Shown here: positions 5,765 to 59,262 of the stretch, in pieces | Layout of the letters: every line of letters begins with the position of its first letter | How positions within the stretch are numbered: the first letter of the stretch is position 1 | NCBI GenBank assembly: GCA_947498625.1 | Contig: CANMKR010000001.1 | Location: forward strand, 612,090 to 676,089 | Length of the DNA stretch: 64,000 nt | From: an uncultured Kangiella sp. | GTDB taxonomy: Bacteria; Pseudomonadota; Gammaproteobacteria; Enterobacterales; Kangiellaceae | Reading direction: 5' to 3' | Made by a program: the position numbers and the translations under genes | Notes under the pieces: model-generated | Database searches by the model: none | Told to the model about the DNA's origin: nothing | What the model saw: only the letters and a program-made list of their open reading frames with translations

Positions 5765-6106
<342 letters not shown>

Positions 6107-57031: not shown

Positions 57032-57622
57032 ATGGATTTTAGCAGCAACCGCGTTATTCCAATTTTCCCGCTCTCTCGAGTGGTTTTCCCTGATAGCCTG
57101 CTGAGATTGCAAATATTTGAGCAGCGCTATCTGCAAATGGTTTCAGAACAATTATCGAAAGGCGAAGGCTTTGGCGTTTGCCTGATAAAGAAAGGTAATG
57201 AAGCAGGTATCCCGGCAACGCCTTTTACCATTGGTACTTATGTAGAAATCATAGATTTTGATCAAACTGAGAAAGGACTTTTAAAAATCGTTTGTTTGGG
57301 GCAACGCAGTTTCCAAATTAACAGTCTTGAAACCTTAGATTCTAATTTACTGACTGCAAATGTCTCTTGGCTTGATCCCATCGATGAGAAGCAAGTGCTT
57401 GATGAGCAGGCTGAGTTAGTTAATTTATTGTCCGACTTATCAGAGCATCCGCAGGTAGAAATCATTGAGGATGAACAAAAGTGGAGCCAGCTGGGTTTTG
57501 TTATGGACCGTTTAACTGAATTTATGCCAATCTCAGAACGACAAAAACAATCCATTCTTGAAACAACCGATATTGAACTTAGACAGGCAATCTTGTTTCA
57601 GATGCTAAATTGGATACGTTAA
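57032..57622 (+). CDS. LON substrate-binding-domain protein
   Basis: 196 aa made up of a single LON N-terminal-like domain without ATPase or protease parts. VIPIFPLSRVVFPDSLLRLQIFEQRYLQMV and GFGVCLIKKG are characteristic. Its role as a free domain is unknown. ATG directly follows the permease stop, so it is the third gene of the operon. No clear terminator follows on the plus strand. Confidence 0.88.
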   Translation: MDFSSNRVIPIFPLSRVVFPDSLLRLQIFEQRYLQMVSEQLSKGEGFGVCLIKKGNEAGIPATPFTIGTYVEIIDFDQTEKGLLKIVCLGQRSFQINSLETLDSNLLTANVSWLDPIDEKQVLDEQAELVNLLSDLSEHPQVEIIEDEQKWSQLGFVMDRLTEFMPISERQKQSILETTDIELRQAILFQMLNWIR

Positions 57623-57671
57623 AAATAGCCTCCTTAGGTCAGCTTGGTAAGTTAAGAGCTTTATTTTGGAC

Positions 57672-57779
57672 AAAAAAATGCCCATCATTTGATGGGCAAA
57701 TGGCTTGCGCATTGATTGGCTAACTTTGAGCGGGTAGATGCCCTCGGTTAGCCGGGGATAGTCTGCACTTAGGAGTGCC
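57672..57779 (-). ncRNA. candidate small RNA on the minus strand
   Basis: In a 343-bp gap between two stops, the minus strand carries an ordered set: promoter (57782-57810), then a hairpin with arms GCACT/AGTGC around loop CCTA (57765-57778), a second stem GGCTAAC/GTTAGCC (57718-57724 with 57747-57753) capped by a smaller hairpin, a single-stranded linker, and a terminator GCCCATC-AAAT-GATGGGC followed by seven T (57680-57697, T-tract 57672-57678). About 107 nt. Unpaired stretches are C-rich (CTCCT, TATCCCC, CTACCCG), which suits pairing to ribosome-binding sites. The Rfam family is not recognised. hfq is in this window. Confidence 0.6.
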
Positions 57780-57781
57780 TA

Positions 57782-57810
57782 CATATAGATATAAGCATAA
57801 AGTGTGCCAA
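57782..57810 (-). promoter_or_regulatory. promoter of the candidate small RNA
   Basis: On the minus strand TTGGCA (57805-57810), a 17-bp spacer and TATATG (57782-57787), so transcription would begin near 57775-57779. The -35 has five of six consensus bases and the spacing is ideal; the -10 has four or so. Confidence 0.6.
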
Positions 57811-57920
57811 AAGATTTAAGTGATTGAATTTTAAGGACTTATTTATTTTATATCGTGATAAACATTTATTTCTTAATCGAACTGTAAATAATTTAAACAG
57901 TTCTATAAAACGCTAAACAA

Positions 57921-57947
57921 TAAAAAAGGGTGCTAAGAGCACCCTTT
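57921..57947 (-). terminator. intrinsic terminator for fabV (minus strand)
   Basis: On the minus strand AAAGGGTGCT, loop CTT, AGCACCCTTT then TTTA. It separates fabV from the small RNA further left. Confidence 0.88.
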
Positions 57948-57965
57948 GATAGTTTTAACTGCGAG

Positions 57966-59147
57966 TTAAATTCTAGGGTCTAAATCTTCTTCGTAATCAA
58001 CGCCATCGACTTCAAAGCCAAATAGCTTAAAGAATTCATGCTTATAGCCATGATAATCTGAGATATCTGAAATGTTTTCGGTGGAAGCTTTATCCCAAAG
58101 AGCTTCAACTTTATCCTGGATAGAATCATCTAACTCTTTTAAGTCCAAACGATAACGACGGGTATCATCATATACAGCTTCGCCATTGATCATTTGATCA
58201 TGAATAAGTCCTTTAATCTGCTCAACTGGATTTTCATGTACTCCAGCTTCTTTCATGACCTTGTATAACAAAGAAATGTAAAGCGGCATCACTGGAATCG
58301 CTGAGCTCGCTTGGGTTACCACGGCTTTTAAAACCGCAACATTTGCTGAGCCGTTGTATTTGCTTTGCAGGTTTTCATGAATTGCGTGAGAGGCTCTATC
58401 CAAATCTTCTTTAGCCTTACCAATAGTGGCATGACCATAGATTGGCCAAGTGAGCTTTTTGCCAATGTAGGTGTAAGCGACGGTATTAACACCTTCAGCA
58501 AGCACTCCTGCATTTTCTAGGGCATTCATCCATAATTCCCAATCTTCGCCACCCATAACCTTAATGGTGTTTTGGATATCATCGTCATTGGCTGGCTCAA
58601 TAGTGACATCATGAACTTCACCTTTGTCGGTATTTAATGTTTTACAAGTAACCGTGTCACCAATCGGTTTAAGTACCGACTTATAGACATCACCAGTATC
58701 AGGATCTTGGCGACGGGGCGAAGCTAATGAATAAACCACTAGATCGATTTTACCCATTTCTTCTTGAATGATTTTAATAGCATCTTCTTTGGCTTGATGA
58801 GAAAAAGCATCGCCATTGATGCTTTTATGCCAAACCCCAGCTTTATCTGCGGCGATCTCAAAGCCACGATTGTTATACCAACCGGCCGTGCCAGTTTTAC
58901 GTTCAGAAGCTTCTTTTTCAAAGAATAGACCTAGGGTCTTGGCGCCATAACCAAAGGCAGAAACGAGGCGAGAAGCCAAGCCATAACCGGTTGATGAGCC
59001 GATGACTAAAACATTTTTAGGCGCATTAGCAGGTACATCGGTAATTTCTTGCTTGATGTAATCGATCTGCTCTTGAACATGAGCTATACAACCTTTTGGG
59101 TGAGAAGCGGTACAAATAAAGCCGCGAACTTTTGGTTTTATTACCAT
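57966..59147 (-). CDS. fabV: trans-2-enoyl-ACP/CoA reductase FabV
   Basis: NADH-dependent enoyl reductase of the last step in fatty acid elongation. 393 aa from ATG 59147, which has TTGGAG six bases upstream. IGSSTGYGLASRLVSAFGYG is the NAD-binding Rossmann motif, and the FFEKEASERKTGTAGWYNN and AYTYIGKKLTWPIY (Tyr-x8-Lys type active site) segments are typical. The TTG 59159 start would place the RBS inside the gene. FabV enzymes tolerate triclosan. It is divergent from the O-antigen-ligase-like gene. Confidence 0.94.
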   Translation of the reverse strand: MVIKPKVRGFICTASHPKGCIAHVQEQIDYIKQEITDVPANAPKNVLVIGSSTGYGLASRLVSAFGYGAKTLGLFFEKEASERKTGTAGWYNNRGFEIAADKAGVWHKSINGDAFSHQAKEDAIKIIQEEMGKIDLVVYSLASPRRQDPDTGDVYKSVLKPIGDTVTCKTLNTDKGEVHDVTIEPANDDDIQNTIKVMGGEDWELWMNALENAGVLAEGVNTVAYTYIGKKLTWPIYGHATIGKAKEDLDRASHAIHENLQSKYNGSANVAVLKAVVTQASSAIPVMPLYISLLYKVMKEAGVHENPVEQIKGLIHDQMINGEAVYDDTRRYRLDLKELDDSIQDKVEALWDKASTENISDISDYHGYKHEFFKLFGFEVDGVDYEEDLDPRI

Positions 59148-59262
59148 GAGATTCTCCAAATACTGGAAACTGCTTTTAAAATTGGCGCTATTGTAACCCT
59201 TTTCTCTAGCAAAGAGGTACTACCATTGGTAGCATTAAGCAAAAGTTAGATTGCTTAATACT

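Follow-up and report, generated by a model that had tools for sequence, protein, structure and literature searches.

Regulatory RNAs driven by sigma54 are, to our knowledge, known from few systems. The promoters of this sigma factor feature the -24/-12 consensus GG-N10-GC. The CrcZ family of Pseudomonas consists of small RNAs driven by sigma54 and the enhancer-binding protein (bEBP) system CbrA-CbrB. GlmY and GlmZ of Enterobacteria are sigma54-linked small RNAs as well, belong to the bEBP two-component system GlrK-GlrR, and are associated with RapZ. The link between GlmY and RapZ is also given in PMC7073468. The Qrr sRNAs of Vibrio are transcribed from a sigma54 promoter under the NtrC-type regulators LuxO and SypG, as stated in PMC10162802.

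For PEP-CTERM genes, PMC1569441 (2006) describes a promoter element that consists of a 17-nt motif ending in TTTACA (motif 1), a spacer with a mean of 62.8 (32-92), and a sigma54 motif with the consensus GG-N10-GC. The element was assigned to the regulator PrsR, named there, on the basis of its phylogenetic profile; the signal of the PrsK-PrsR system was not known in that paper. Finally, bEBPs lacking the sigma54-contact motif GAFTGA—NtrC of R. capsulatus, NtrC of Caulobacter, and VspR—have been reported to be active with sigma70 (PMC10274813).

The locus described here lies in a stretch of 64,000 nucleotides, hereafter the window, of a 2.32 Mb genome of the genus Kangiella and features a predicted small RNA. 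Like the Qrr sRNAs, it combines a sigma54-type promoter with a predicted NtrC-type regulator; it differs by having PrsR instead of LuxO, by the absence of Qrr among the listed Rfam matches, and by being found only in Kangiella. The sigma54 link and control by a bEBP two-component system are shared with GlmY/GlmZ, from which it is set apart by the lack of an Rfam match and by another site and regulator. CrcZ, likewise a sigma54/bEBP-driven small RNA, is longer; the Kangiella sRNA has no Rfam match to it and no decoy motifs by eye. With the published PEP-CTERM element it has in common the 17-nt motif 1 ending in TTTACA, the sigma54 box, and the presence of PrsR and PrsK. However, the Kangiella element precedes an RNA gene in genomes without an exosortase over the cut-off, whereas the element of PMC1569441 drives PEP-CTERM protein genes.

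The sRNA is, as far as can be judged, previously undescribed, with a promoter that resembles the switch of surface-sorting (PEP-CTERM) genes: the literature matches listed for PrsR/PrsK/RpoN/PEP-CTERM, for exosortase with small RNA, and for Kangiella with Hfq contain no description of it, and no sigma54-driven regulatory RNA under PrsR is among the matches listed. The reading that we hold with good confidence is that of a Kangiella-specific sRNA transcribed by sigma54-RNA polymerase under active PrsK-PrsR and acting most likely in trans by Hfq-dependent base pairing, with a housekeeping sigma factor probably taking over in a clade that lacks rpoN.

The small RNA and its locus

The features of the locus are, in the order of the window:

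57032..57622, plus strand: gene of a LON substrate-binding-domain protein (flank), adjoining the sRNA at 20 of 20 loci
57672..57782, minus strand: predicted small RNA of about 111 nt, 3' end from the U-tract and 5' end placed by the sigma54 spacing; in 20 of 20 Kangiella genomes
57672..57698, minus strand: intrinsic terminator, stem plus U7, at a terminator-like site (57698-57679)
57700..57717, minus strand: core AAUCAAUGCGCAAGCCAU, the likely seed, with UCAAUGCGCAAGCCA invariant across all 20 genomes
57718..57753, minus strand: stem-loop 2 with an inner stem and a C-rich loop (CUACCC), from fold and covariation
57754..57760, minus strand: single-stranded C-rich linker UAUCCCC, kept in 10 of 12 sigma54-type genomes
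57761..57782, minus strand: stem-loop 1, from fold and covariation
57793..57810, minus strand: predicted sigma54 promoter TTGGCACACTTTATGCTT (-24/-12, GG-N10-GC), at the locus in 12 of 12 rpoN-bearing and 0 of 8 rpoN-less Kangiella
57817..57829, minus strand: IHF-like site ATTCAATCACTTA, one mismatch to WATCAANNNNTTR
57883..57899, minus strand: predicted PrsR site (motif 1) TGTTTAAATTATTTACA, 17 nt, ending in TTTACA
57925..57947, minus strand: predicted fabV terminator, upstream of the sRNA
57966..59159, minus strand: fabV (flank), adjoining the sRNA at 20 of 20 loci

The gene at 57966-59159 is presumably fabV; the name of the LON-domain gene, and in part that of fabV, was taken over from an earlier, sequence-only reading of this DNA. 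That reading had proposed an independent minus-strand sRNA in the gap between the two genes, and this proposal is now well supported, because the sRNA is present in 20 of 20 genomes, has covarying stems, carries its own predicted promoter and terminator, and is inverted in 5 of the 20. The fabV terminator that had been placed just upstream on the same strand is predicted as well (57947-57925).

The sRNA is positioned between the fabV and LON-domain genes in all 20 Kangiella genomes, with lengths of 101-131 nt in the other genomes by the same rules. At 15 loci, it is oriented along the fabV strand and at five (L015, L016, L017, L020, and L021) along the LON strand; in the latter, promoter, core, and terminator stay together. 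Since the unit is inverted in place, the sRNA is regarded as autonomous. A nucleotide search of 61 genomes matched it in all 19 further Kangiella genomes; the best match in the 41 non-Kangiella genomes was a 24-nt piece of the terminator (E 5.9e-4), and the matches beyond the genus were judged to be chance. Scanning one genome per species with the core pattern—a set that possibly did not include the record of the window itself—yielded 13 loci, 12 in Kangiella and one in Kangiellaceae. A covariance model of core and terminator scores 61.7-74.9 bits in all 20 Kangiella genomes. In 20 other genomes of the family, its best match has 29.3 bits (G020) and was rejected as a homologue of the sRNA, the sequence being without the core; the remaining matches beyond Kangiella reach at most 27.4 bits and cover in some cases only the terminator and in others the whole model. 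In agreement with the sequence-only reading, which could name no known sRNA family, no Rfam family reaches the gathering cut-off in the window or in the loci of six relatives. The weak match to Ysr49 (20.9 bits at a cut-off of 95) is treated as chance, and Qrr, GlmY, GlmZ, and CrcZ are absent among the 10 Rfam matches up to E 10.

The minus strand folds with -39.1 kcal/mol (z -4.14), a value that 0 of 200 shuffles equal, and, together with the terminator-like site, this bears out the earlier description of a minus-strand element that closes with a hairpin followed by seven T. Of the three stem-loops proposed in addition to that hairpin, the structure retains two—the second with an inner stem. 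In the subgroup of the window, 98.7% of the cells are paired over 26 pairs, a structure derived from the same six sequences on which the covariation was scored. Eight of the 26 pairs are changed on both sides, compared with an average of 4.4 in shuffles (1 of 500 as high) and 0-1 for slid partners; compensatory changes of this kind are what a comparison of relatives had been suggested to look for. Within stem-loop 2, where 100% of the cells of the six sequences are paired, both partners have changed in 3 of 7 outer and 3 of 4 inner pairs. Further pair types, one of five covariation measures, are not more frequent than in shuffles (12 vs 13.1). In the terminator stem, a comparison of 12 distinct sequences reveals a single pair with both partners altered, which by itself is weak support.

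The sequence TCAATGCGCAAGCCA occurs at all 20 Kangiella loci. The most conserved stretch between the stems is the 15-nt core and not the C-rich stretches emphasized by the sequence-only reading; of these, UAUCCCC is kept as listed above and CUACCC in 6 of 6 genomes of the window's subgroup (0 of 6 other sigma54-type genomes), and CTCCT falls into an unconserved loop. The mean unpaired probability of the core is 0.63 in the RNA of the window and ranges from 0.41 to 0.77 in the 12 sigma54-type RNAs vs 0.23 to 0.57 in the eight rpoN-less ones. A small ORF starting from the AUG in the core was considered and rejected: it has no evident ribosome-binding site, and its codon third positions are invariant by inspection, which favours an RNA function. 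At three rpoN-less loci (L181, L182, and L184), a terminator hairpin GGCUUGC-ACAUU-GCAAGCC lies upstream of an ORF, and the GCAAGCC is common to the core of the sRNA.

The promoter and its predicted activator

The rpoN gene (PF04552) is found in 12 of the 20 Kangiella genomes, the eight others including one that is 55% complete (G002). The box TTGGCACNNTTTATGCTT (GG-N10-GC) is kept in the same 12 genomes, in one of them as CTGGCAC, and in 0 of the 8 others. The hexamers TTGGCA and TATATG read earlier as the promoter are indeed present 17 bp apart, but their interpretation as a sigma70 promoter fails: a sigma70 scan of 57500-58100 yields no site, and TATATG is not conserved among the Kangiella loci. 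Because of this empty scan, the unconserved TATATG, and the box kept in 12 rpoN-bearing genomes, the predicted promoter of the sRNA is of the sigma54 and not of the sigma70 type. At the scale of whole genomes, the exact box was matched in 11 of the 12 rpoN-bearing genomes and in none of the 8 rpoN-less ones; each of the 11 carries one copy at the sRNA, and G000 has an additional copy. The eight form a single clade (LON-domain protein tree, split 0.997); thus, the association of rpoN and box counts as one evolutionary event and not as 20 independent observations. Transcription would start at approximately 57782, 12-13 nt past the -12 GC, rather than at 57775-57779 as proposed before.

Upstream of the sRNA, all 20 Kangiella genomes carry a 17-nt site ending in TTTACA. 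In 12 of 12 rpoN-bearing genomes, it lies 72-73 nt before the sigma54 box, within the published 32-92 nt; in 8 of 8 rpoN-less genomes, the box is missing. IHF has the consensus WATCAANNNNTTR. A site of this kind precedes the box by exactly 19 nt in 12 of 12 sigma54-type genomes—five perfect and seven, including the window, with one mismatch—although at one mismatch 58-91 of 500 shuffled regions match as well.

A search of 295 relatives for the composite element matched 46 genomes, compared with four matches in all for a reversed control pattern. Each rpoN-bearing Kangiella genome has exactly one element (12 of 12), which is located at the sRNA, and the rpoN-less ones have none (0 of 8). Outside Kangiella, 45 elements are distributed over 34 genomes, and 27 of them were examined. 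By eye, 20 of the 27 precede proteins with PEP-CTERM-like ends; among the other seven are L269, a flagellin-like gene (L276), and some that lack an end of this type. Of 18 of the 27 proteins that were scanned (17 of the 20 and L269), 13 exceed the cut-off of TIGR02595, and L248 that of a different PEP-CTERM model. G024, a genome of another genus in the family of Kangiella, carries five elements, four of them before PEP-CTERM-like proteins. The PEP-CTERM promoter of L275 features TGTCAAAATATTTTACA at 73 nt, near-identical to TGTCAAAATCTTTTACA of Kangiella at 74 nt by the same count. The sRNA gene itself is not a PEP-CTERM protein gene; it encodes a structured RNA, with no protein gene directly downstream. 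In none of the 20 Kangiella genomes does an exosortase exceed the cut-off; weak partial matches occur in 12 of the 20, for 11 of these 12 in frames of at least 600 residues.

PrsR of G000 is encoded outside the window at ~C1:91249-92613 and scores 688.1 bits with TIGR02915 (cut-off 502.6). PrsK, of 486 aa, follows at ~C1:92632-94092, also outside the window, with 366.2 bits for TIGR02916 (cut-off 300). This PrsK (L065 4633-6093) covers only positions 263-678 of the 679 of the model, its N-terminal sensor part being much shorter. Of the 20 Kangiella genomes, 19 yielded a PrsR; the exception is G002, among whose compared loci there was none.

Taken together, these elements suggest the following course of events. 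Upon activation of the PrsK-PrsR two-component system, PrsR, an NtrC-type enhancer-binding protein, would bind the 17-bp site, from which the -24/-12 box lies 72-73 bp downstream, and a DNA bend at the IHF-like site would bring it to the sigma54 polymerase. A structured RNA of ~111 nt would then be made, stopping at the intrinsic terminator.

PrsR-like boxes of the form TGTCANNNTNNTTTACA number 67 in the 20 Kangiella genomes, compared with 10 for the reversed pattern. Eleven of the 67 are located at the sRNA, and none of the others forms a sigma54 composite. Some of these others recur, for example, a triple-box cluster and the TGTCAGTATTTTTTACA sites. Because of the surplus boxes without a sigma54 composite, further targets of PrsR may exist, or the motif may also serve a different regulator; at the stringency searched, the sRNA is claimed to be the only predicted PrsR target of the sigma54-composite type. 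The cluster consists of three TGTCA-N6-TTTACA boxes within 100 bp (L229 and L219 1501-1594, also G013 and G019) and in L229 and L219 stands, without a sigma54 composite, upstream of a 431-residue minus-strand frame.

Function of the RNA and alternative readings

By default, the RNA is assigned a base-pairing role that would depend on Hfq: it most likely acts in trans, pairing via the invariant core and the C-rich stretches. Its U7 terminator tail is of the kind present in Hfq-dependent trans-acting sRNAs. The hfq gene, earlier described as nearby, is part of the window (5783-6106) but lies ~52 kb away and is not linked to the locus. A search of the 20 genomes (13-mer, at most one mismatch) revealed no perfect antisense site to the core that is conserved. 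Of the 18 stretches around recurring or own-genome core matches, most fall within ORFs or on their opposite strand, one set represents a different terminator, and none resembles a shared 5' leader. When 61 crudely defined gene starts of the window were scanned for duplexes, the best p was ~0.009, the level expected by chance for 61.

An RNA that serves as a protein decoy—a sponge of Hfq, RapZ, or a CsrA-like protein, as are CrcZ and GlmY—in place of a base-pairing regulator is considered unlikely. CrcZ and GlmY are sigma54-linked RNAs of other bacteria, rpoN lies in an operon with a rapZ-like gene, and the rpoN-less RNAs have a partly paired core, all of which would suit a decoy. However, the most conserved part of the RNA is a 15-nt sequence that is mostly open in the sigma54-type folds and seed-like, and by-eye inspection of the sequences reveals no repeated protein-binding motif. 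That the unit has no gene product at all, being a set of conserved terminator and promoter fragments or the mRNA end of fabV or of the LON gene, is hardly credible: the region does hold two terminators, yet fabV carries its own upstream of the sRNA, the internal stems covary, and in 5 of 20 genomes promoter, core, and terminator are inverted together relative to the neighbours.

Regarding the control of the RNA, little speaks for constitutive transcription by sigma70 from the two hexamers, or for sigma70 transcription under another factor, and this reading is given very low credence. Both hexamers are present in the window, and the RNA of the eight rpoN-less genomes, if made, cannot depend on sigma54; against this stand the empty scan and the conservation of GG-N10-GC instead of TATATG, as well as the loss of the box in exactly those genomes without rpoN. 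A sigma54 promoter answering to a different activator is somewhat easier to envisage but still improbable. The candidates are a second enhancer-binding protein, from a HAMP kinase/regulator pair on contig 2 of G000, or some other regulator that recognizes TGTCA-N6-TTTACA. The second bEBP of G000 does contain GAFTGA, with sigma54-like boxes at C2:492532 and C2:495304, and TGTCA-N6-TTTACA sites exist elsewhere without a sigma54 composite. Yet no TTTACA is found within ~240 nt upstream of the box at C2:495304, PrsR is present in 19 of 20 genomes, including seven rpoN-less ones in which its DNA-binding end has hardly changed, and in other genera PEP-CTERM genes are preceded by this composite. Control of a base-pairing sRNA by PrsR and sigma54 is the preferred reading.

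The second sigma54 system of G000 (contig 2, 492532-495400; L064 and L062) comprises a HAMP histidine kinase and a bEBP with GAFTGA. A sigma54-like box with one mismatch precedes the kinase gene, and the exact TTGGCACACTTTTTGCTT precedes the gene of a 209-aa protein, for which there is no NCBIfam match.

The rpoN-less clade

In the eight rpoN-less genomes, the sRNA and the PrsR site are kept and the sigma54 box is absent; the site lies 83-84 nt before a conserved TAATCTA. The sigma54-contact motif GAFTGA is present in PrsR of 12 of 12 rpoN-bearing genomes and of 0 of 7 rpoN-less ones. Receiver and C-terminal helix-turn-helix of the rpoN-less PrsR are similar to nearly identical, and in the one genome scored the protein is still over the equivalog cut-off of TIGR02915 (616.5 vs 502.6). 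It thus resembles the GAFTGA-less bEBPs mentioned above in being NtrC-type without the sigma54-contact motif; it differs in that the regulator is PrsR and in that the change coincides with the absence of both rpoN and the sigma54 box of the target.

In these species, the switch and its regulator seem to have been altered in concert: PrsR would have lost its sigma54-contact motif while keeping receiver and DNA-binding ends, and the RNA would have retained the PrsR site next to an altered promoter. A sigma70 scan of two rpoN-less loci (L009 and L011) shows no site at the expected place; a weak, activator-dependent promoter is therefore assumed. With other GAFTGA-less bEBPs reported to act at sigma70 promoters (PMC10274813), PrsR probably still controls the RNA together with a housekeeping sigma factor. 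On balance, we lean slightly toward a wider scenario, in which PrsK-PrsR was taken over in Kangiella for a regulatory RNA, as its sole sigma54-type target, after loss of the exosortase; following loss of rpoN in one lineage, promoter and AAA+ domain of PrsR would have changed together, with the circuit continuing on sigma70.

The 20 genomes constitute a natural before-and-after series, with an enhancer-binding protein, its site, and one sigma54-type target in the presence and absence of sigma54. The survival of an enhancer-dependent circuit after loss of its sigma factor becomes directly testable in this series—a natural test of rewired gene control—and PrsK-PrsR gains a simple RNA readout.

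Further sequence features accompany these loci. At the rpoN-less loci L009-L014, L018, and L019, a block like AATGCAGATGTGATTTT...AAGTCA directly upstream of the PrsR box is perhaps a further regulatory site. Between the PrsR box and the promoter, GTTAACATT is common to the rpoN-less clade and the K. aquimarina group despite their different promoters. In rpoN-bearing genomes, L055, L056, L057, L059, and L149 feature a further NtrC-like protein with an altered GAFTGA motif, which reads GAFTNA in four cases and is lost in one.
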